DNA of 64,000 nt from Cnuella takakiae (lineage in GTDB: Bacteria > Bacteroidota > Bacteroidia > Chitinophagales > Chitinophagaceae): the NCBI RefSeq assembly GCF_001953305.1, contig NZ_MTFE01000010.1, positions 1 to 64,000 of the forward strand, in the 5' to 3' direction. Every line of letters starts with the position of its first letter. The first letter of the stretch is position 1. Both the position numbers and the translations under genes were made by a program. Below the pieces are notes generated by a model. The model saw only the letters and a program-made list of their open reading frames with translations, did no database searches and was not told the DNA's origin. Shown here one piece after another: positions 4,496-19,000 of this stretch.

Positions 4496-5360
4496 GTCCA
4501 ATTCATGGACTCAATTTGGTGCTCCATCTCACGCCGGATTTTTATATGAAATCCTTCTTGTCTTCAATCTTTCCTTCTATCTCTGGTAAACAGGGGCGTC
4601 AAATGTGCAAGACCACCGTCGAGACCTTTATTTGCTCTTTATTCACGGAGACCCCGAAGCGTAGTAAACGCTTATTTGCGATGGAGTAACTGGAGCGGAA
4701 CGGACGGCGATTGTAGGAGCGGAAAGTAAAGCGGAACGTAAGGAGCGAAAGAGCAATTTAGTATTTGTGCGTTGGCCAAAAGAAGCGCAACCTCTGTGCG
4801 CATGGGCAACGTTGTGCGGTGTGTCGCCAGAACAAATTAAAATCTCTTGTTGACCTTTTGGCTCCAGGGAATAGTTGGCGGTGGCTTCTTTGCTTTCTGT
4901 CTGCTTATTTTAGCGTAGGCGTTATTTAGAGCAGGCTGAATTTGGAAACCCTGAAGGTAGATATAGTGCGACTTGACTCTTATCCCTTTTCACTTTTAAA
5001 ATAAAATCTACTCGCAACTGCTTTGTTCCTGCTTAACAACTCTCTGTCTTTACTTCACAAACATAGGAGAGTGCGACGCAACAAAAGCCTTATAGATAGC
5101 CTACAGCTGACACCATCATCCATTCAAATCCTCCGTTTCTCCCACCTATATGCGTTTAAGGAAATCATATAAATAGCTGAACAATATCATACAATCATCC
5201 CCGTGTACATTTGGCGTTTGTGTTCCAACATTGAGGTTCACAGGACTTAACCCTTATATATGCCATATGATTTTCATAACCTGCAAAGTGAGGAAACCTA
5301 GCGCTATTTTGCTTCGGCCTTTATAGCACAGTCGCCGGCTGTAACTTAGATTCATGATAG
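4496..5360. other. long intergenic stretch without a supported gene
   Basis: No gene is convincing here. A 9-bp inverted repeat (TTGCTCTTT at 4632-4640, AAAGAGCAA at 4748-4756) brackets a purine-rich segment with three GGAGCG-type words and a small AAGCG/CGCTT hairpin. The GTGCGACGCAA word at 5071-5081 repeats the one at 47-57. Confidence 0.45.
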
Positions 5361-6225
5361 CGAGGGCAAGGCAGGTATCTGTTAACGAAGCTCATCAAAA
5401 AAGATGGGCACTTCGCAGGAGAGTCTGGGCAAATCGGTGTTTGAAGTATTTCCAGCGGATATAGCTGCCGAATACCGGCGAAATGACAAACAGGTACTGG
5501 CAACCAGACAGACTATCAACACCGTCGAAAAAACAGTAGACCTGCATGGCAATGCGGCCACTTACAAAGTCACCAAATTCCCTTTGCATATAGCGGATGA
5601 ATAAATGGTAGGCGGGTTTGCGCTGGACATCAGCGACCGGGAAGGGCAACATCACGACTTGCTACAGCACGAGCGGTCAAAAGCCAAGATCACGGTAACT
5701 TCTATCATCGAAGCCCAGGAGGCAGAAAGAAACCACTTATCGCAGATACTTCGTGATGGCATCAACCAAACCCTGACCTCTTGAAAACTTATGGTGGAAG
5801 TAGGCGGCCCTTCTATCAACCCCTATGTGCACCGGTTGTATACCTATATTCAGGAAGCAATCAAAGACCTGGGGAGCATCAGCGCCAACCTGAGTGGATC
5901 AGTGATCAGGGAAGTAGGCCTATTGCCTGCCATCAGGAACCTGTTAGCGCTTAACAATCCTGCCGTAACCTTTGTATCGGAACTGGAAGAAATGGCATAT
6001 GCCGTACTTCAGGGCAAGTTGCAATTGGGTTTTACCGGATGATGCAAAGCATGTCCCAACTCATAACACTTTGTCCCTCCCAGCCTGACGGAAGCATCCG
6101 CATTCTGACGCAAAACAAGAATCTGTTTGTACTCCTTGAAATCTGGCAAAAAGAGGATTGGATAAAAATATCAAAGGCCCATCAACAGAATGCTTGCAAA
6201 GGTTGGAAAGCCCCTGATAAAAAGA
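5360..6225 (+). pseudogene. decayed PAS sensor kinase-like gene
   Basis: A related protein can be followed through several lesions. A PAS-like start near 5372 (GRYL..NEAHQKKMGTSQESLGK) needs two frame corrections. From 5404 the frame gives SVFEVFPADIAAEYRR and then meets TAA (5602-5604) and TGA (5782-5784). Between the stops is EAQEAERNHLSQILRDGINQ, matching the dimerisation helix of the gene at 8781-10472. After a further shift near 6040, MQSMSQLITLCP aligns with CIQAAGRLLQTIP of that same gene. This is therefore a dead paralogue. The usual phospho-accepting His is Arg (codon 5752-5754) in this copy too. Confidence 0.75.
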
Positions 6226-7153: not shown

Positions 7154-8377
7154 TTATAAAGCCTGATGGTCGGGCAGGTAGCAGTTGAAGGTAGCCCCGC
7201 CTTCGGGGTTGCCGCTTACCCGTATCAGGCCGCCATGGTAGGCAAGAATACGCTGGCAGATGCTCAGGCCCAGCCCCGCGCCGCCCTGTTTTTCTTTTGA
7301 GTGCAGCCGGGTGAAAGGTTGGAATATTTTTTCGCGGTAAGCCGCTGCAATGCCGACACCATTATCCGAAACCGACAATACCCAATAATCCTGCTGGTTT
7401 TCTGCTGCCCTGAAAGCAGTAATATGAACGCGGATGGGTGTATCAACATGCGAAAAGGTAAGCGCATTACTCAGCAGGTTGGCTACCAATTGGTGCAGCA
7501 GGTGAGCAACGCCCCACACCGGTGGAAGCGCACCCACTATTACCGTGGCGCCTACCTCCTGAATTTTTACTTCAAAGGAGGCAACAACCTGTTGCACCAC
7601 CTGCTCCAAGCTGACCATAGCCGCTACGGGCGCCTGCGCCTCCACACCCGCATACATCATTACCCCTTCAATCATCTGCACCAATTGGTGGGCGGCATGG
7701 TCGATGCGCTGCAAATGGTAAATAGCCGTTGGCGGCACCACGCCATCCAGGTCTTGGAGCAGGCGGGAGGTATAGGTGCGAATTTTCCGTACTGGCTCCC
7801 GCAGGTCGTGGGAGGCTGCATGGATGAACTGTTGGAGGTTTTCGTTGGCGCTGGACAAACTGTTGTTGGACTGTGCCAGCAGGGTGCGGTGCTGGTGAAG
7901 GCTGGTATTTAAATGAGCAGCATGCTCTTTGAGCAGGCTCAGGCTGGCAACAACGCTTTTGATGTCATCCTGCTGAGTGGTGATGTCCACATTGGCCGAA
8001 ACGCTCCAGATATGAAGCCCCTGCTCATTTTTGATGGGAACACCCAGGTTGACATACCATTGGGTGATGCCCGTACGGTGTACGAATCTTTTGATCACCT
8101 TCCGCACCACTGTTCCCTGTTTGATGGCCTGTGCCACCGGCGCATCTGCGGGTTGCAACATATTTCCATCTTCATCTTCATACACCGCCAGCTTTACAAT
8201 TTGCCGCAATAAAGCATCGAGGTTGCTGCCAAAAACTACAGGGGTGCCCAATATATCGCTGAACTCCCGCATACCGGCGGCATTTGCATACCGGAGACTG
8301 CCATCGCGGTCAAATAAGAAAATGGGAATGGGGAGCGCTTCAATAATGGCCGTGGCTACCTGAGGTATCAGAAGCAT
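7154..8377 (-). CDS. PAS sensor histidine kinase
   Basis: A cytoplasmic histidine kinase of 407 residues if it starts at ATG 8375-8377 (MLLIPQVATAIIEALPIPIF). The open frame runs 33 codons further up to a GTG at 8474-8476, but that extension has no domain. Domains in order: PAS (LPIPIFLFDRDGSLRYANAA), a coiled linker (LNTSLHQHRTLLAQSNNSLS), HisKA with the phospho-acceptor in AASHDLREPVRKI, and HATPase_c with N-box NLLSNALTFS, G1 DNGVGIA and G2 GGAGLGLSIC. All motifs look functional. It lacks a receiver and membrane segments, so it should sense a soluble cue and pass phosphate to a separate regulator; the only response regulator nearby is at 16916-17545. Confidence 0.85.
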   Translation of the reverse strand: MLLIPQVATAIIEALPIPIFLFDRDGSLRYANAAGMREFSDILGTPVVFGSNLDALLRQIVKLAVYEDEDGNMLQPADAPVAQAIKQGTVVRKVIKRFVHRTGITQWYVNLGVPIKNEQGLHIWSVSANVDITTQQDDIKSVVASLSLLKEHAAHLNTSLHQHRTLLAQSNNSLSSANENLQQFIHAASHDLREPVRKIRTYTSRLLQDLDGVVPPTAIYHLQRIDHAAHQLVQMIEGVMMYAGVEAQAPVAAMVSLEQVVQQVVASFEVKIQEVGATVIVGALPPVWGVAHLLHQLVANLLSNALTFSHVDTPIRVHITAFRAAENQQDYWVLSVSDNGVGIAAAYREKIFQPFTRLHSKEKQGGAGLGLSICQRILAYHGGLIRVSGNPEGGATFNCYLPDHQAL

Positions 8378-8780
8378 TTTATCACCGGAGTGGATATATA
8401 GCTCATTATTGTCCAAAATAGGGAGTTGGGTGTGATAACACAGCAGAATGCGATGCGTCTTTACCAGAAGATGCACTAAGTTAAGCGGAAATATAGCTTT
8501 TGGAAAAAATAAGGGTGTATTTCAAATCTTCGCCGGTTTGTGCGGACGCAAACCGAGGCAGCCGCTGAAGGCTGTGTCCACACAGCCCTATGGTCCAGCG
8601 AAAACTTGAAATGCACCCAAAAATAGTAAGGCTTATTTGAAGTAGCCTGTGCTTCCAACTTATGGCATGGAGAAGTTTGCCGCAGTATTCCGCTTGCCTG
8701 ATCTCTTCCATACAACAAGCTGCCAAACCCACCCCTTTTCAGCAAAAACACCTCTTGTTACCCCAGGCAACAAAACACCT
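8378..8780. other. structured spacer between two kinase genes
   Basis: This holds two adjacent hairpins: CGGTTTGTG/CGCAAACCG with loop CGGA (8534-8555) and the perfect palindrome GGCTGTGT-CC-ACACAGCC (8570-8587). A minus-strand open frame covers them (8476-8751) but resembles no protein. The structures could terminate or process the transcript between the two kinases. Confidence 0.5.
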
Positions 8781-10472
8781 TTACTTTTTTACCACGGGAA
8801 TGGACAGCCGGATAGTATCGTCAGGGAAACTGACTTTACCACCGAGATAGGCGGCCCAGTTAGCTAGATCGTTGAACGATTCCTGCGCCAATACATCCAA
8901 TAAAGCTTCATTGGGACCAATATGGATGTTGACGATCAGATGCCTGCGGAAACAATACAATTCAAATTGTAACGCCTCCGCAACTGGTATTGTTTGCAGT
9001 AGCCGTCCTGCCGCCTGAATACACCGGTAGCTTCCCAGGCTAAATGTACGGGGCCAGCGCTGTACCTGCCGTTCGGTAAGCCGGTTGCTGACCGCTACAA
9101 CTGGCGGGAAGTTGCAACACAAACTGTTGATGGCTGGTATCAGGCCAAGTTCCCGCACGATATTACCATTGAGCATTTCACTTTTTTCCTTGATGGTGGC
9201 AATCGAGGATTGCAGTAAATTCTGTGCTTTCAGTTGCAAGGAATTGGCGCCGCCGCCTTCCATTTCCAGCATCAGCTTACAGGCAGCAAGGGTTTGATTG
9301 ACGGAATCGCGCAGCCAGTGGGAGAGATAATTGCGTTCGCGCTCCTGTGCATCGGCAACCGACCGCAACAAGGTGCGCTGTTGTGCCGCCGCCATCCGCA
9401 ATCCCTTGCTTTGATTGGCCAGCTCCCGGGTGATATTGGTGGCCCAACAGCCTACCATCATGGTACCTGCCACCTTAATAGGAAAGTGAACCACCCGGAA
9501 GGTATCTATGCGGCCATTGGTAAGCAGGGCTTTTTGTAAGGTAACTGCGGGTGTGCCGGTACGCAACACTTCTTGAAGGGTTGAACGGCAGGTCTCGGCT
9601 GTTTCGGGTGTAAACAGTGCTTCGTAGGGCTGGCCTATCAAGTATTGGGTAGTACCCAGCTTTTGCTGCTGCGCCCTGTTGAAGTACTGGAAACAACCCT
9701 GTGGATCGCTGATCCAGGCCATGGACGGCGATTGTTCCATAAAAGCTTCAAACCCTTCGCTGCTTTGGCTTAGTGCTTCGGCAATCTGTTGTGCAAGTAG
9801 CTGCTTTTGCAACTGCTGCCGCGTATTGGTGTAATCGGCTACTAGAATAAGTATGCCCGGAGTTTGGGCTTCAGGTATATTGATGGGCAAAAATTTCAGT
9901 TGCAAATTCGTATCCTGCTGCCCTGCTGCCGATACTTCATATACCACCGGCAGGCCCTGCACACATTGGCAGCACCGCTGGTACAAAGCGCCAAACTCGG
10001 TGGCTGGTACCAACCCGCGCAGCGCAGATCCCGCTTTGGCTTGTGTATCGAAGAACAAAGCAGCGGCACCATTACCCGGGTAGTGGGCCAGCAGCCTGAA
10101 TTGATGATCCAGCAATATTGCGGAGGACTCAAAATGATGTAGCACCTCGTTGATTACCGGTACGGCCTTCAACCGGTAGGTGTAAAAAGTACCAAGCCTG
10201 AGGCCCTGCGCATCCTGCCAGGGCAGTACCTCAGGCTCGGCATCTACCCAAAGGCTGGCCAGCAGCATGCGCTCCACCTGCCTGTAAGGGCGTGGCCTGC
10301 ATTCATTGGGCAGCGGCAATATCCGCTTTGCCGCTTCGTTGAAAAAAACGGCACGCCCTCCTTTGTCCACTCCAATAATGGGATAGGGATGAGCGTGCAG
10401 CAAACCAGCGATCATGGGGTGTACCCCTGTATCCAGGTTCGGTTTGTTGATAAGTTTGAGATCCACGGTCAT
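8781..10472 (-). CDS. multi-PAS protein with degenerate kinase core
   Basis: A 563-residue protein. The N-terminal half has three PAS-like segments (about residues 20-60, 110-150 and 245-330; the clearest is SPSMAWISDPQGCFQYFNRA). A helix follows that matches HisKA_3-type dimerisation domains: DAQERERNYLSHWLRDSVNQ. In that family the residue before Asp is the phospho-accepting His; here it is Arg388. The C-terminal part keeps the ATPase outline (GSYRCIQAAGRLLQ, then FNDLANWAAYLGGKVSF) but lacks a recognisable N-box Asn and DxGxG. The protein is probably a pseudokinase that binds or regulates neighbouring kinases. The dead copy at 5.4-6.2 kb shares the Arg. Confidence 0.75.
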   Translation of the reverse strand: MTVDLKLINKPNLDTGVHPMIAGLLHAHPYPIIGVDKGGRAVFFNEAAKRILPLPNECRPRPYRQVERMLLASLWVDAEPEVLPWQDAQGLRLGTFYTYRLKAVPVINEVLHHFESSAILLDHQFRLLAHYPGNGAAALFFDTQAKAGSALRGLVPATEFGALYQRCCQCVQGLPVVYEVSAAGQQDTNLQLKFLPINIPEAQTPGILILVADYTNTRQQLQKQLLAQQIAEALSQSSEGFEAFMEQSPSMAWISDPQGCFQYFNRAQQQKLGTTQYLIGQPYEALFTPETAETCRSTLQEVLRTGTPAVTLQKALLTNGRIDTFRVVHFPIKVAGTMMVGCWATNITRELANQSKGLRMAAAQQRTLLRSVADAQERERNYLSHWLRDSVNQTLAACKLMLEMEGGGANSLQLKAQNLLQSSIATIKEKSEMLNGNIVRELGLIPAINSLCCNFPPVVAVSNRLTERQVQRWPRTFSLGSYRCIQAAGRLLQTIPVAEALQFELYCFRRHLIVNIHIGPNEALLDVLAQESFNDLANWAAYLGGKVSFPDDTIRLSIPVVKK

Positions 10473-10548: not shown

Positions 10549-11769
10549 CTACCCTCCTGCTAACAGGGGTGCTGTATAAGCCACCACGGGAAAGCCCACG
10601 GTAAAAGTGGTACCGGCGCCCGGCTCACTTTGCACTTCAATAAAACCATCGAGCTGTTGTACAAAGTCGTGTACCAACATCAGCCCGATGCCACAACCTT
10701 TTTCACTGTTGGTACCATCCTTTGAAGCTACATGGCTGCGGAATAAACTTTTCTGGCCAGCCTGATCCATACCTACACCGGTGTCGGCAACGGTGAGCAC
10801 ACAATAGGCATTCTGCTGCGTCCATTCAATGGTGATGCTGCCCTTGCTGGTAAACTTGATGGCGTTGCTCATCAGGTTGCGTACCACAAACGCCAGTACG
10901 CCTTCTGTAACGGCAACAGGATGGCTGTCCTGTATGGCCATATGCAAATCAATTAGCTTGCTGGTAGCTGTATGGGCCAGCAGGCTCAACTCCTTGCGGA
11001 TGATTTGTGTCGGCCAGGCACATATGGGTTTCTGCCAGGCTATATCCATATTTAACCTGCCCCAGGTTACCAAACTATCGTAAGTCTGCAGGCTGAAATT
11101 CAGCTGATCCTGCATCAAACTCATCAACCGGGGTACTTCTTCGGGGGGGCACAAGCCGTCCTGTACCAGGTCAAGCAGGTGTTTCATGGAGCTCAAAGGC
11201 CCCCTGCAATCATGGCCCATCACCAGGAGAATTTTGCGTTGGTTTTCCAATAATATTTTGTTAGCCGCTTTGCGTTGTTCTTCTTCCTGCCGGAGCAGGC
11301 GCAGCGCTTCTTTTCTTTTCTCAGCTTGCTCCATCCGCACAACAAGGCGGCCTAGCCGTTGTAGTTGTTTATACTGCTGCGGGCTCAGGTTAAAAGGCTT
11401 GTTGTGGAGCAAACAAATACCGCCTATCTCTTTGCGCTGGCAAATGATAGGTACGCCCGTGCAAAACCACACCACATCATTACTGGATGTCAGCTTTGCT
11501 CCACTTTTGGAAATGGTGGGATCATTATTCCCGGAGTTGCTGAAGTCTCTTTGTTGCATCAGGTGGTAACAGGATGGAACTACATCATAAACTAAACCAG
11601 GCTCCCGGCTCACTACCTGCCGCCTGCTGGAAAATAAACTGATCATGGACAGGCTCACTCCACTGGTGGTACGGGCTAAAAATGCCAGATCGGATAGCCC
11701 CGGATTATTTGCCAATTGAAAACCTGTATCCGTAACTGTTTTATTAGTTGGTGAGCTGTAATGGAGCAT
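10549..11769 (-). CDS. GAF-type sensor histidine kinase
   Basis: A 406-residue soluble kinase. Residues about 20-155 look like a GAF domain (LAFLARTTSGVSLSMISLFS; VPIICQRKEIGGICLLHNKP). A coiled coil (EQAEKRKEALRLLRQEEEQR) leads into HisKA with MGHDCRGPLSSMKHLL, then HATPase_c with N-box NLMSNAIKF, G1 DTGVGM and G2 GCGIGLMLV. All catalytic motifs are present. It is the first gene of a minus-strand series, 76 nt upstream of the pseudokinase, so the active and degenerate proteins are probably made together. Confidence 0.82.
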   Translation of the reverse strand: MLHYSSPTNKTVTDTGFQLANNPGLSDLAFLARTTSGVSLSMISLFSSRRQVVSREPGLVYDVVPSCYHLMQQRDFSNSGNNDPTISKSGAKLTSSNDVVWFCTGVPIICQRKEIGGICLLHNKPFNLSPQQYKQLQRLGRLVVRMEQAEKRKEALRLLRQEEEQRKAANKILLENQRKILLVMGHDCRGPLSSMKHLLDLVQDGLCPPEEVPRLMSLMQDQLNFSLQTYDSLVTWGRLNMDIAWQKPICAWPTQIIRKELSLLAHTATSKLIDLHMAIQDSHPVAVTEGVLAFVVRNLMSNAIKFTSKGSITIEWTQQNAYCVLTVADTGVGMDQAGQKSLFRSHVASKDGTNSEKGCGIGLMLVHDFVQQLDGFIEVQSEPGAGTTFTVGFPVVAYTAPLLAGG

Positions 11770-12284
11770 GCCCTGTAAATTTTGCGATTGAAAAAAATGC
11801 CTTCCTAATCATCTTCAGGAAAACGATACATGGAACAGAAAAAAGACGCTGTTTAAACATAACTATGTTCCTGGCGCTTCAATCACATTAGATGATGTTT
11901 GCTTGCCGCAAGCTGCGCTACTATGCAATGGCAATCAAAGAACATCGATAAAAAATAGGGCAGGATTTACGTTTTTAATGTCATAAGAAGAAAGAAAGCC
12001 CGAGGTAGAAACCACTGGCCGTTATTAAGTCTTTTACCACATCTAAACTGCTGGCAACAAAGAAAGGAAAAGCGTAAGCCAGGATATGTAACCAGAGCAA
12101 TATTTTTCTTGTCGTGTTTTGTCCAATCAAGCCGGACAAAAAACAAAACTGCCAACAGGCACTATGCCAATAACCAGCTGTATGCGTTAAACTTTAATTG
12201 TTACAACCCAATGGAAAATTTATATCCGGCAACAATGGTTATATTGGATATATCGCTTTCATTTTTTATTTAACCTGTACGCAT
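11770..12284. other. AT-rich divergent spacer, no gene
   Basis: This is the space between the minus-strand kinase series and the plus-strand giant kinase. It presumably carries both promoters, but I cannot place a convincing TAnnTTTG-type element. A 62-codon minus-strand frame (11967-12155) has no support. Confidence 0.5.
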
Positions 12285-15200
12285 ATGCCGGCCCGTAAAT
12301 CCACTATCCCTATTCTTTTGCTAAGCAGTATCGGTTTTATAGTTGTTGCCATGGTATGGTTTGTCATCATTGCGGTGCAACTAAAACGTAGCAGAGAAGA
12401 GGTTGCCCACTCGCAAAGGATTTTAAAACACGTTACCGCACTACAGGTATTATCGAAGCAACAAATGCTGATGCAAAAGGACACACATCTTGTGGCAGCC
12501 ACAAGCTTGTTGATGAAAGAGCAGGCAACGGAGCTGAAGCGTCTTACCGAGTTATCACCTGCACGGCAACAGGCAATAAGCAGGTTGTTGGTGGCGCTAC
12601 AGGCAACAGCGCCACCGCAAACCCTGGCACCCATCATACAAAAAATCAGCCAACAGGAAGAACAGTTATATACAAGCAACAACCGGCAACTGGTAAGCGA
12701 CCGGAAGATGCTGAACCTGCTTCAGGTGATTACCCTGGCCGGGCTGGTCATTATTGGCAGTTACCTCTTTTTTTTAGCCCGTGGCCGGCAAAGAATCAAG
12801 GACCAATTCAAATTGTTTACCGAGCACCTGCACGATGTGATGCTATACTTGGATAAAGAGGGCAGGGTGGTGTACGCCAACAGGGCGGCGGCGGCATACA
12901 CCCAAACCGCACCAGACCAGTTGAAAGGACAGCTACTGTATTCAATTGGCGGCTTTGCACCTATTGCGGGTATAAAAACATTGTGGGATGCTACCCGGCA
13001 ACTACCGGCCAGTCATCAGGAGCAGTATATGGAATACGAAGACCTGGCTACCAACCAGTTTTATGGCCTGAGCATTTACCCGGCGGCAATCGGTTATCTG
13101 GTGGTTTGCAGAAACAGAACAGAGCTGGCAGTGGCTGCGGGAAAAAACGTATTGGCGGAGCAGCAGTTGGTACAAAAAGAAGAACACTACAGGCACCTGA
13201 TCAATGCGATTTCAGACTGTGTTTTTACCGTTGATGCCAACGCACGGATCACCGCTGTAAACGAGGCGGTATGCAATACCACCGCAAAGCCGGCGGCGCA
13301 TTTTATAGGCGCCCCGCTCAGCCGCATCATTGCTATCAAACCCGCAGAAGTACAACAAGAAGCGCTGTCGTTTTATACACGCTGCCTGGAGCTGCAGATT
13401 TCGGACACGCTGGAATACGTAGATAAAAAAAGTAACCGGGCCCGGATCATTTTTGCCTATCCTGCTTTTGGCGGCCTGCTGGTAATCAGCAGGAATACTA
13501 TCGACAAATGGCAGGCTGCCAACACGGCCAGAACACTGACAGAGGCCCTGCACACCAAAGAACAGCAATATGCATCCTTGCTCAAATCCATCACCGATGG
13601 ATTGTATGTGTTGGACAGCAACTGGGTTTTTACCCATGCAAACGAAAAGCTGTGCGCCTATTTCAACTTGCCAATGAACGCGGTGGCAGGGCAGTCGTTC
13701 AAAACCCTTTTTCCCGAGCTGCGCCACCCCAATTTCAGGAATTTTGTTGCCGCCATCAACGATGCCATTACCGAAGGCAAAGAGGGACTTGTGGAACTGC
13801 TGGATTTGCGGGGCGATTATTACCAGATCAGAATGTACCCGCATCTGGATGGTGTGTTGGTCATCTACCGCAATATTACTGATGTACGGACGGCGGCGGC
13901 CGAAAAAGAGCGCCTGACCAAACAGCTTGCCGACAGCCAAAGACAGTACGCACAGCTTGCCGAATCGATATCGGATGGCGTTTATGCCATCGACGCCAAC
14001 TGGACCATCAGCTTCGCCAATATGGCCACTACCATCGCTGATACACCGGCCAGCCTTACCGGAAAAAACTTCTTTGACATCGCCCGGCTTTCGTTGGAAA
14101 AAGATTACACGGCCTTATTTCAACTGATTGTGCACTGCCACCAACAACAACAGGAAGGTTATATAGAGGTGGCCGATAAGGAGGACCGCTGGATCCGTTC
14201 GGTAGTGGTATATCCCTGGAAAGGAGGAGTCAATATACTCACCCACGATATCACGGCTACCCGGAGGGCAGAAGCAACCGCCAAAAACCTGGCGATAAAA
14301 GCCGCCGAGGAAAAAGCCCGGTATGAAGTATTTTTACAATCGGTGACAGACGGTATCTACGCCCTCGGCCGCAACTGGCGCTTCCTGTATTGTAATGATA
14401 CATTTGCCCGTTATTTTGGCCACACCCCAGCCTCACTGCTGGATATGGATTTCCGCGAGTTGTGGCCCAGCCTCAACAACAGCCGTTTCCGGCCTGTGTA
14501 CAACCTGCTGGAAGCCGCCATCAGCCAAAAAACCAACGGGTACCTGGAAGTGCTTGGCGAAGACCAGAAAACATGGTATGGCATCAGGGCCTTTGCTTCT
14601 GAAACAGGTGTATCGGTAATTTACCAGGATATCACCAGCCGTAAAACTGCCGAACTACAGGTAGTACAGTTGGGAGATGAACTCAACCTGCAAAAAGAAC
14701 GGTTCCTGATTTTGGAACAATGGATGACCGATGCGGTATTGTACCTGGACCAGTTGTTTTGCATACGTTATGCCAATACGGTAGTTTGCCGGTACTTCAA
14801 TCTGGATTTCGCCCAATTGTCTGGCCGCAACTATTTGCAACTCTTGGGAACAAAGCAAATAGATGATCCGGAGTACATACAGTCGATACAATCCGCCGTA
14901 CTACAGGCACAACCGGCTGAACTAATCGTACACAATGTTGAAGGTAAGTATATGAACTGCCGGATCATACCGGTTACAGGCGGCACCATCTTACTGCTGC
15001 ACGACATCACGGAGCAGTACCACACACAAATTTCGCTGGAAAATGCCCGCACCCAACTGGAGCAGCAGTTGTGGCAAAATAAAATTTTTGTCGACTCCGT
15101 ACAGGATGGCATTTACGCACTTGATTTTGACTGGAAGTTTCTGTTTGCCAACCATACCTGTGTACTGGATTTTGGAAGACCCAAAGAACAATTGCTGGGT

Positions 15201-16871
15201 GCCGATTACCGTACCATTTACCCCGGCTTACTGCACCCGCAGCGGCCCGGGCTGTACCAAAAGCTCCGCGAGGCACTAGAAGAAGGCAAGGAGGGAATGT
15301 TGCATTGGGAGTACCAGGAAGGCTGCTATTCTTTTGTCCGCATCTATCCTTCCCCAACCGGTGTATCGGTGTACTACCGCGAGATTACCGAAGAGTATCA
15401 AAAGAGTGTAAAAATTGGGGAGCTGTCCCAAACCTTTGCGTTGCAAAACGAACGGTACAGCACCCTGGTACAGGCAGTAACCGATGGATTTTACGCATTG
15501 GACAAGCAGTGGCGATTTACCTATGCCAACCAATTTGTATGCGCCTTTTTCAACAAACCCGAAGCCAGTATTCTGGACCAGCCGCTGGGCGAGCTGTGGC
15601 CGGTATTATACACACCGGATTTTGCCCCTTTTTACCAGCTATTGCACAACGCAATTGAACTGGGCGAACCGGGATATATTGAGATAGCAGGTGATACGGA
15701 GCAACCGGCCACTTTTGGTGTTTGGACCTATCCCTCCGCAACCGGAACTTCGGTTTTATTGAAAGATATTACACCCCAGAAAGAAGCGGCACATCGGATG
15801 CTGGCCCTTACCGAAAAGGTTTCAAATCAGAACCAGCGGTACAATGATCTGATCAACGCCTATCCAGATAGTTTCGCCGGTATTGATTTCGATTGGAACT
15901 TCACCGTTGTAAATGAAGAAGGCGCCCATATGTTGGGGCAAAACAAAGTGGCCATACCAGGCCGCCGGGTGCTGGATTTATTTCCCTTTATCAACACGCC
16001 GGCAGGTGCGCCCCTGTTCAACCTGTATGCCGCGGGGCTGGAGCAAAGAAAACAAGGATACCTGCGTATACCCATACCCGGCGATGGCAGGGTGTATGAT
16101 GTGTGGGTGTACCCGGCCAACTCTGGCATATCCGTTATTTGCCGCGACCAAACCGCCTATGCACTGGCTGATGCTGCCCGCAAAAAGCTGCTCCTCAAAG
16201 TACATAAGCTGAGCAAACACCTGCAACAGGCACGCGAAGAAGAGCGCAGCCACCTTGCCCGGGAAATTCATGACGAACTGGGACAACAACTAACGGGCAT
16301 CAAGCTGGGTTTGGCCATTCAGGTAAAACGCTGCCAGCGGCAACTGCCTACAGCAACTTTCGATGCGGGCAGCATATACCAAATGCTGGATGACACCATC
16401 GATACGGTGCGCAAAATATCGGCCAACCTGCGGCCACCCGTACTCGATGAGATGGGACTGATGGCCACGCTTCAGTGGTATGCACAACGGTACCAACAAC
16501 AATACGGCATAACCATCCATTTTAAAATCAAATCCTTTTATTCGCCCGGCAAGGACAAGGAAATTCACGTCTTCCGCATCTTTCAGGAATCGCTGACCAA
16601 TATCATGCGGCATGCCCAGGCCACCGCCATCACCGTTCATATAGCCTGTACGCCTGCATTGTTCCGCATCAGCATACGCGATAATGGTAAAGGCATCATG
16701 GAAGAAGACCAGTTCAAAAGCCTGGGCATTACCGGTATGCGGGAAAAGGCACACCTCATAGGGGGCAAATTCACCATTCTTCCCCATCCGCAAAAAGGAA
16801 CGGTAGTACAATTAAAAGCGCGGATAAAGCCCATGATCATCCAGGATGATGACAGCCTGCAACAGCATTGA
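12285..16871 (+). CDS. giant membrane kinase with nine PAS domains
   Basis: A protein of 1528 residues from ATG 12285; an upstream in-frame TTG at 12198 is disfavoured. A first transmembrane helix (ILLLSSIGFIVVAMVWFVII) and a second near residue 150 (LLQVITLAGLVIIGSYLFFL) flank a helical extracytoplasmic sensor. Nine PAS units follow at a regular spacing of about 126 residues, most starting like TDGxYALDxxWxFxYAN (about 12.83, 13.2, 13.58, 13.96, 14.34, 14.72, 15.1, 15.48 and 15.86 kb). The C-terminus is a HisKA_3 domain (EERSHLAREIHDELGQQLTG, His1329) plus HATPase_c (QESLTNIMRHAQ, DNGKGI, LGITGMREKA). HisKA_3 kinases normally pair with NarL/LuxR regulators, and one is convergent right after it. 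Confidence 0.9.
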   Translation: MPARKSTIPILLLSSIGFIVVAMVWFVIIAVQLKRSREEVAHSQRILKHVTALQVLSKQQMLMQKDTHLVAATSLLMKEQATELKRLTELSPARQQAISRLLVALQATAPPQTLAPIIQKISQQEEQLYTSNNRQLVSDRKMLNLLQVITLAGLVIIGSYLFFLARGRQRIKDQFKLFTEHLHDVMLYLDKEGRVVYANRAAAAYTQTAPDQLKGQLLYSIGGFAPIAGIKTLWDATRQLPASHQEQYMEYEDLATNQFYGLSIYPAAIGYLVVCRNRTELAVAAGKNVLAEQQLVQKEEHYRHLINAISDCVFTVDANARITAVNEAVCNTTAKPAAHFIGAPLSRIIAIKPAEVQQEALSFYTRCLELQISDTLEYVDKKSNRARIIFAYPAFGGLLVISRNTIDKWQAANTARTLTEALHTKEQQYASLLKSITDGLYVLDSNWVFTHANEKLCAYFNLPMNAVAGQSFKTLFPELRHPNFRNFVAAINDAITEGKEGLVELLDLRGDYYQIRMYPHLDGVLVIYRNITDVRTAAAEKERLTKQLADSQRQYAQLAESISDGVYAIDANWTISFANMATTIADTPASLTGKNFFDIARLSLEKDYTALFQLIVHCHQQQQEGYIEVADKEDRWIRSVVVYPWKGGVNILTHDITATRRAEATAKNLAIKAAEEKARYEVFLQSVTDGIYALGRNWRFLYCNDTFARYFGHTPASLLDMDFRELWPSLNNSRFRPVYNLLEAAISQKTNGYLEVLGEDQKTWYGIRAFASETGVSVIYQDITSRKTAELQVVQLGDELNLQKERFLILEQWMTDAVLYLDQLFCIRYANTVVCRYFNLDFAQLSGRNYLQLLGTKQIDDPEYIQSIQSAVLQAQPAELIVHNVEGKYMNCRIIPVTGGTILLLHDITEQYHTQISLENARTQLEQQLWQNKIFVDSVQDGIYALDFDWKFLFANHTCVLDFGRPKEQLLGADYRTIYPGLLHPQRPGLYQKLREALEEGKEGMLHWEYQEGCYSFVRIYPSPTGVSVYYREITEEYQKSVKIGELSQTFALQNERYSTLVQAVTDGFYALDKQWRFTYANQFVCAFFNKPEASILDQPLGELWPVLYTPDFAPFYQLLHNAIELGEPGYIEIAGDTEQPATFGVWTYPSATGTSVLLKDITPQKEAAHRMLALTEKVSNQNQRYNDLINAYPDSFAGIDFDWNFTVVNEEGAHMLGQNKVAIPGRRVLDLFPFINTPAGAPLFNLYAAGLEQRKQGYLRIPIPGDGRVYDVWVYPANSGISVICRDQTAYALADAARKKLLLKVHKLSKHLQQAREEERSHLAREIHDELGQQLTGIKLGLAIQVKRCQRQLPTATFDAGSIYQMLDDTIDTVRKISANLRPPVLDEMGLMATLQWYAQRYQQQYGITIHFKIKSFYSPGKDKEIHVFRIFQESLTNIMRHAQATAITVHIACTPALFRISIRDNGKGIMEEDQFKSLGITGMREKAHLIGGKFTILPHPQKGTVVQLKARIKPMIIQDDDSLQQH

Positions 16872-16915: not shown

Positions 16916-17545
16916 TTAAAGCAGATGCTCTTCCAGGCAAAAACGAACCAGGTCTGGCACGGTAAACAACTGGAGTTTTTCCATCACCCGGCTCCGGTAA
17001 GTGGCAAAAGAAGAAGCACTGATATGGAGCAGTGCGGCGCCCTCGCGTACTTTCTTTCCCTTTGCCACCAGCAGCAGCACTTCCATTTCCCGATCTGTCA
17101 GCAAATCTTTACTGACTTTTCCTTCGGGGTTGAAAATTGCGGAAACCATGATTTCCGCTACCTGCTCCGTTATATAATTTTTCCCGGTGATGATGCGCTC
17201 CAAAGCATCCACAAGGTCCACGGCCGCCACCGTTTTGGTCAGGTATCCCGATGCGCCTGCCCGCATCGCCCGCAGGGCATAAGCGTCTTCGCTGTGGAGG
17301 GTCAGCACCAGCACCGGAAGCTTGGGTTTAACCTGTCTTATTTGTATCAGCGCATCAATGCCTGTTTTCCCCGGCATGGTAATATCCGTTACCACGGCAT
17401 CCCAATCTTCTGCAAGTACCCGCCGTACAAGGTCGTCGGCATTATCCACTTCCACAACATTACAAAAGGGATAAGATTCCTGTATCAATTGGCGCATACC
17501 TACACGTACAATAGTATGATCGTCGGCGATGATAATTTTTTTCAT
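16916..17545 (-). CDS. NarL/LuxR-type response regulator
   Basis: A 209-residue two-domain regulator. The receiver domain has the acidic pair ADDH, phospho-acceptor Asp54 in VVTDITMPGKTG, the switch Thr in LVLTLHS and Lys in GYLTKTV. The C-terminal LuxR helix-turn-helix is LTDREMEVLLLVAKGKKVRE followed by SASSFATYRSRVMEKL. It ends 44 nt from the end of the giant HisKA_3 kinase on the opposite strand. That kinase class typically phosphorylates this regulator class, so the pair is probably cognate (inference). It may also serve the minus-strand kinases at 7-12 kb. Confidence 0.9.
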   Translation of the reverse strand: MKKIIIADDHTIVRVGMRQLIQESYPFCNVVEVDNADDLVRRVLAEDWDAVVTDITMPGKTGIDALIQIRQVKPKLPVLVLTLHSEDAYALRAMRAGASGYLTKTVAAVDLVDALERIITGKNYITEQVAEIMVSAIFNPEGKVSKDLLTDREMEVLLLVAKGKKVREGAALLHISASSFATYRSRVMEKLQLFTVPDLVRFCLEEHLL

Positions 17546-18039: not shown

Positions 18040-19000
18040 CTAAAGTGGAGGATTTGGACTTCTGTGAGGGATTAAAATCTGGTGATGAAGGCGTATATTT
18101 TCTGATGCAGCTGAGTCATGGTTTGCAGCTGCAAAATACATGTCTTCATCACCAGAAGCCGCCAGCAGGCCATCTTTTCGTTCTTCTGTTTTGCTGCTTT
18201 GCTGAAATTGTTCTACTACCTTTGCTGGTGTTTGGTCGTTTAATGAGCTGTGTGGCCGAAAGTTGTTGTATTCATCTATCCACAATTTGATCTTTTCATA
18301 GGCATCTTCCTTGGATAGGAACCAGTGCATGTTTAAGCATTCATCGCGAAAAGAGCTATTGAACGACTCTATGAACGGGTTGTCCGTTGGTTTGCCAGGA
18401 CGGGAATAATCCAAAGTGATGCCATTTTAGTAAGCCCACATGTCAAACTCTTTGGATATGAACTCACTTCCGTTATCCACCTGAATTCTTTTCGGCACCA
18501 TTCTATTCTCCTTCTTCAGTGCCTCCATGACTTCCACCACATCTATTCCCTTGATGGATTTGCCCACTCGGATCGCGTGGCAGTAGCGACTAAAATTATC
18601 CACTACAGTTAAACACCAGAATTTCCGTCCATCAAAGAGCTAATCCTGTACGAAATCCATGCTCCGCACTCGTTTAACTTAGGGTTCAATGGCCGCTCCA
18701 GTCAGTGTGCAGCTGCTTTATTTCTCCTTGGCCGTTTGCTTCGTAGGTTCAGCCCTTCTTCCTTGTAGATACGGTGTACCCGCTTATGATTATCTTTGAA
18801 ACCAACTCTCTACGAAGCAAAAAAAAGTTCTGCCACATACCATACCTAACTCTTGCTGCAGCAATCTCCTTTATACGCTGCCGGAGCGGCCGGTCTTCAC
18901 GCCGATGATGCTTATAGTACCAGGCTGAGCGATGCAGGCAAACAGCTTTGCAAGCCTTGATCACTGAAACTCTATAGGTGATGATTAACCCGGATGCCAA
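18040..19000 (-). pseudogene. IS3-family transposase OrfB, multiply broken
   Basis: Pieces of the DDE integrase can be read: an N-terminal part (HRSAWYYKHHRREDRPLRQR), the core VVDNFSRYCHAI and VPKRIQVDNGSEFISKEF, and the C-terminal catalytic stretch NPFIESFNSSFRDECLNMHW with RPHSSLNDQTP. In-frame stops occur at 18427-18429 (after DMWAY) and 18640-18642 (after VQD), and the N-terminal part is frameshifted. Confidence 0.82.

Follow-up and report, generated by a model that had tools for sequence, protein, structure and literature searches.

What becomes of a sensor histidine kinase whose phospho-accepting histidine has been replaced? The question is raised by the window analysed here, a stretch of 64,000 nucleotides from Cnuella takakiae (contig NZ_MTFE01000010.1), in which the initial annotation noted a sensor kinase carrying Arg at this position and proposed a pseudokinase that governs its active neighbour kinases. 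On the minus strand an unbroken reading frame runs from 10472 to 8781 and encodes 563 residues with no stop; the helix motif of the protein is ERERNYLSHWLRDSVNQTLAACKLMLE. The Arg was read correctly: it is Arg388, and it replaces the His of the LHD/E-xxxQ motif expected of a HisKA_3 kinase. The gene and its parts are:

8781..10472, minus strand: pseudokinase gene, 563 aa, with N-terminal sensor part, PAS, DHp-like helices and ATPase-like remnant
9462..9752, minus strand: PAS domain, residues 241-337 (PF00989, 6.6e-10; PF08448, 2.3e-8)
9153..9386, minus strand: HisKA_3-like DHp helices, residues 363-440 (alignment and AlphaFold helices)
9309-9311, minus strand: codon CGC of Arg388, where the phospho-acceptor His stands in active HisKA_3 kinases
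9294..9308, minus strand: retained motif DSVNQ, D389 to Q393, equivalent to DesK D189 and Q193 (PMC5231405)
9273..9275, minus strand: Leu400 (+12), equivalent to the regulator-docking Leu200 of DesK (PMC5231405)
8784..9098, minus strand: remnant of the ATPase domain, residues 459-563; N-box, G1 and G2 motifs absent

Pfam recognises PAS domains only, and the HisKA_3 and HATPase models give no match in the protein even at E<1. Active LHDNVNQ kinases in the genus (loci L013-L019) have the same PAS type. Alignment with active relatives bears out the reported absence of an N-box and of DxGxG. The N-box QEVLNNIIKHA of the relatives has become QAAGRLLQTIP, the G1 box DNGKGF has become GPNEALL and the G2 glycines are lost, leaving none of the ATP-binding boxes expected in a HisKA_3 kinase. 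Helix 1 round the acceptor is 49% identical to that of active kinases, the rest of the DHp and CA domains 17-19%.

The structure prediction of the C-terminal region that had been suggested as a check finds the fold of HisKA_3 kinases kept. AlphaFold models residues 330-563 with a pLDDT of 83 as a DHp domain, formed by helices 3-75 and 81-105 (numbering of the 330-563 fragment), followed by a Bergerat-like CA domain. The top Foldseek matches are DesK-H188V (3ehj) and the DesK-DesR complex in the phosphatase state (7ssj), with E about 2e-6 and a global TM of about 0.37, a low value that is to be expected for two flexibly joined domains. Since the acceptor His is replaced and the ATP-binding motifs are lost while DHp helix 1 is retained, the protein is, as judged from its sequence, a kinase-dead HisKA_3-type sensor or pseudo-histidine kinase, the selection on this type being seen in its relatives.

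A second copy of the gene lies 2.6 kb away and has decayed:

5314..6150 (about), plus strand: decayed paralogue with stops, a frameshift and an Arg codon

Stop codons interrupt its frame at 5602 and 5782, and the frame shifts near 6025. Its motif is LRDGINQ, as had been claimed; CGT at 5752-5754 encodes the Arg, and the N-box has been lost here too, its region reading QSMSQLITLCP. The two copies pair in trees built with all columns (support 99/96) and with the motif columns removed (95/91), yet they share only 28% identity. The Arg substitution is thus likely to be older than the duplication, in agreement with the initial annotation.

No close orthologue of the protein was found in the genus (18 genomes, its own included) or among 396 genomes of the family, and a protein scan of a wider contig collection found no relative. 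A DNA pattern of the helix with His matches ten times in its own genome and not at all when reversed as a control for chance; with the Arg-type codon it matches twice, at the 563-aa gene and the decayed copy. The 395 remaining genomes of the family contain four matches to the Arg-type pattern. Two are genuine pseudokinases, L022 (LRDNISQ) and L025 (LRDSVNQ, with one frameshift in the PAS region); the other two, L021 and L024, encode HTH proteins with no relation to them. Searching with the L022 protein and then with a profile added seven more: L034 and L035 (LRENINQ), L036 (LGESVNQ), L061 (LRNNINQ), L062 (LRDNINQ), L065 and L066 (both LRDSVNQ). The total is nine further pseudokinases in eight genomes and four genera besides that of the window, all in one family. 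Held-out pseudokinases score 139-202 bits against the profile and active kinases 113-133 bits, the margin for L022 being small; the held-out members outscore every active kinase tested, and the grouping is thus no product of the profile itself.

Across the class, in 247 genomes mostly outside the family, the profile search found no further pseudokinase at threshold, and the five matches that were read (L075, L076, L077, L079, L080) carry LHD motifs and are not of the Arg type; a sixth, L078, did not come up in the motif scan. The exact Arg-helix pattern occurs at three loci of the wider contig collection, one being L025 again and the second an unrelated archaeal protein. The third, a PAS kinase in a Pedobacter sp. 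MAG (L029:2713-4635), has FRDGIGQ, with Arg at the acceptor and an ATPase domain that looks intact, and from its sequence is possibly an independent, earlier-stage loss of the acceptor. A 146-aa open frame (L087, G274:C11:1301604-1302032), matched by the pseudokinase profile over its final two thirds alone, is a truncated or broken copy.

The nine relatives share the losses and the retained positions. The acceptor is Arg in eight and Gly in one; position +1 is D/E in eight and Asn in L061; position +5 is Gln and position +12 hydrophobic in all nine. The 563-aa protein and the decayed copy have R, D, Q and L at the four positions. Neither an N-box nor DxGxG is present in any of the nine, and in the seven scanned the Pfam models for HisKA_3 and HATPase detect nothing, the best match reaching 14.7 bits to HisKA_3 against a cut-off of 24. 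The sensor end is of two kinds. Five proteins (L022, L025, L034, L035, L036) have one PAS type, PAS_4 in the three scanned, and four (L061, L062, L065, L066) have a hydrophobic N-terminus read as about six transmembrane helices, with a sub-threshold MASE7 match in one. Twenty of 223 alignment columns are invariant, the Gln among them. Whole-gene dN/dS is 0.18, 0.11 and 0.20 in three relative pairs, rough values with some dS >1. In one pair of genomes (G177/G230) the DHp region gives 0.066 for the pseudokinase and 0.065 for the active kinase just upstream. The nine-member clade thus evolves under purifying selection with Arg as the usual replacement, and together with the lost acceptor and ATP motifs and the kept fold this upholds the pseudokinase part of the initial annotation. 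That the protein and these relatives have retained the face used on the partner protein suggests that they turn signals off or redirect them and do not start them.

The nine relatives form one clade (100/99, motif columns removed). With all columns the 563-aa protein and the decayed copy are sister to it (96/94). When the motif columns are dropped the pair has no resolved place, and the AU test does not reject a grouping with the active L013-type kinases (p=0.09). Because its placement depends on these columns, the Arg may have arisen once or twice; the PAS type shared by the 563-aa protein and the L013-type kinases would fit either origin. The sister group consists of active kinases from the genus that are built alike, such as L013, and that have the PAS type and the DHp in common with the 563-aa protein. 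As to whether Arg is conserved in homologues, the point on which the initial annotation staked its reading, it is so within the pseudokinase clade (8/9), and His is found in the active sister group only.

Which proteins the pseudokinase acts on is the part of the initial annotation that is not supported. Four genes around it are relevant:

7154..8476, minus strand: downstream neighbour, PAS-HisKA-HATPase_c kinase (Pfam)
10549..11769, minus strand: kinase gene next upstream; HATPase_c is matched, HisKA weakly, and the His is present (Pfam)
12198..16871, plus strand: active HisKA_3 kinase with IHDELGQ, 1557 aa, about nine PAS stretches (Pfam)
16916..17545, minus strand: NarL-type response regulator (REC + GerE), candidate substrate (Pfam)

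The kinases at 7154 and 10549, which the protein had been proposed to control, are HisKA-type and not HisKA_3, and are less likely partners; most relatives, moreover, have no directly adjacent kinase. The usual partners of HisKA_3 kinases are regulators of the NarL/FixJ type, which makes such a regulator the expected partner of the pseudokinase. The 1557-aa kinase and the NarL-type regulator of the window face each other on opposite strands. Beyond them, at 18040-18414 on the minus strand, lies an open frame that by reading of its sequence resembles an IS3-type transposase in its C-terminal part. The genome also encodes at least 10 LHDNVNQ-like kinases. In G177 and G230, two species of one genus, a conserved same-strand cluster (L070:2869-7697, L071:2953-7761) runs from a HAMP-HisKA kinase through a single receiver and an active REC-HisKA_3 kinase to the pseudokinase, an arrangement that hints at an antagonistic or heterodimeric kinase-pseudokinase pair there. 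The active HisKA_3 kinase is directly beside the pseudokinase in these two of the nine relatives, and the others have no directly adjacent kinase gene.

The retained residues may point to an activity that does not need the acceptor. In DesK, Asp189 binds Arg84 of the regulator in the phosphatase state, Gln193 positions the water and the regulator is docked by Leu200; for the phosphatase activity of NarX the His is reported to be nonessential (PMC5231405). In nature, DrBphP, homologous to histidine kinases, works as a phosphatase with undetectable kinase activity (PMC8292422). The 563-aa protein has the D/E at +1 (D389) and the Gln at +5 (Q393) of this phosphatase mode, and we infer, with belief and doubt evenly balanced, that under the control of its PAS domains it either dephosphorylates or binds NarL-type regulators in their phosphorylated form. 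It would dimerise via the DHp domain with a helix register set by its PAS domains, and the face formed by D389, Q393 and L400 would bind a phosphorylated NarL/FixJ-type regulator. The bound regulator would be dephosphorylated, with the Gln positioning water, or at least held. The net effect would be to counteract at least one of the cell's active LHDNVNQ kinases. A caveat on the phosphatase reading is that Gln and D/E could be retained for helix packing instead, the Gln being one of 20 invariant columns; DivL, which binds DivK~P and does not act as a phosphatase, also speaks against it (PMC4211667).

A rather unlikely alternative is that the protein works as an adaptor, pairing through its DHp with an active LHDNVNQ-type kinase and tuning it with no chemistry on a regulator. 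DHp helix 1 is retained, active kinases of like build in the genus form the sister group, the ten or more LHDNVNQ-like kinases of the genome are possible partners, an active REC-HisKA_3 kinase immediately precedes the pseudokinase in two genomes, and precedents exist in DivL-CckA, RetS-GacS and RocA-CovS (PMC4211667, PMC7028121, PMC9491836). However, a kinase gene is not directly adjacent in any of the other relatives, the neighbours of the 563-aa gene itself belong to another DHp class, and DesK turns to its regulator the very face (+1, +5 and +12) that is conserved here. That same docking face would also serve a decoy or phospho-specific sink that binds the phosphorylated regulator without dephosphorylating it, for which DivL, a pseudokinase with Tyr for His that binds DivK~P and is not a phosphatase, is the precedent (PMC4211667). 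This is improbable, as the Gln at +5, which is catalytic in the DesK/NarX phosphatase reaction and not merely a docking residue, is strictly retained and favours catalysis.

That the gene is functionless and dying, like its paralogue at 5.3 kb, might be argued from the missing orthologues in genus and family, the very long branch and the dead sister copy nearby. We consider it very improbable: 563 codons are free of stops despite about 2.5 changes per column on that branch, GC at the three codon positions (0.59/0.41/0.58) resembles that of the adjacent genes, and conservation is centred regionally on DHp helix 1. A kinase still active via another acceptor or a cryptic ATP site is scarcely credible with the His and all of the N-box, G1 and G2 motifs gone; the predicted Bergerat-like fold is the one feature found in its favour.

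Extended from this protein to the group, the dephosphorylation reading becomes a tentative and somewhat doubtful proposal: one Bacteroidota family would hold one-way sensor phosphatases in which Arg has replaced His, the ATP site is lost and DxxxQ is under selection. If true, signals passing through Arg-type HisKA_3 proteins could only dephosphorylate regulators. A published survey found the His missing in 0.3% of HisKA_3 (56 of 16,025) and in 0.9% of HisKA sequences, and this rarity in HisKA_3 was taken to argue against phosphatase activity as the general role of pseudo-histidine kinases (PMC12632262). The sequences counted were those recognised as HisKA_3, and members like the present ones would mostly go unrecognised. 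Surveys built on the Pfam HisKA_3/HATPase models would miss Arg-type pseudokinases, and since the clade lies below the Pfam thresholds the 0.3% may be an undercount. As the phosphatase chemistry of HisKA_3 proteins has no need of the His, the clade offers a natural test of evolution into dedicated regulator phosphatases.

Pseudo-histidine kinases are already known as a kind, though mostly as single cases. The nearest active relatives, the LHDNVNQ PAS kinases of the genus (L013), have the His and all ATP motifs intact. DivL of Caulobacter likewise combines PAS sensor domains with a DHp in which the acceptor has a conserved replacement (Tyr), but its N, G1, F and G2 boxes are all present and it was shown to be no phosphatase (PMC4211667), whereas the 563-aa protein has Arg and no ATP motifs. 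RocA, a streptococcal pseudokinase with six transmembrane helices and a degenerate CA domain, is similar in layout to the transmembrane relatives; in contrast to them it carries a His, His246, which is dispensable, and CovS is the protein through which it acts (PMC7028121). The ChrS pseudokinase made by a frameshift in the CA domain has also lost kinase function, and the phosphatase Gln of wild-type ChrS is Q191, but the case is a laboratory mutation with a truncated CA in which phosphatase activity is lost too (PMC9491836). DrBphP is a phytochrome (PMC8292422) and is likened by its phosphatase output without detectable kinase activity, not by its motifs. DesK and NarX, bifunctional HisKA_3 kinase-phosphatases, share the DHp class, the D-xxx-Q motif and the +12 docking residue, but retain the His and ATP binding, neither of which the 563-aa protein has. 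By analogy with NarX, and with about as much for the comparison as against it, the protein could be the natural counterpart of a His-mutated HisKA_3 kinase that retains its phosphatase.
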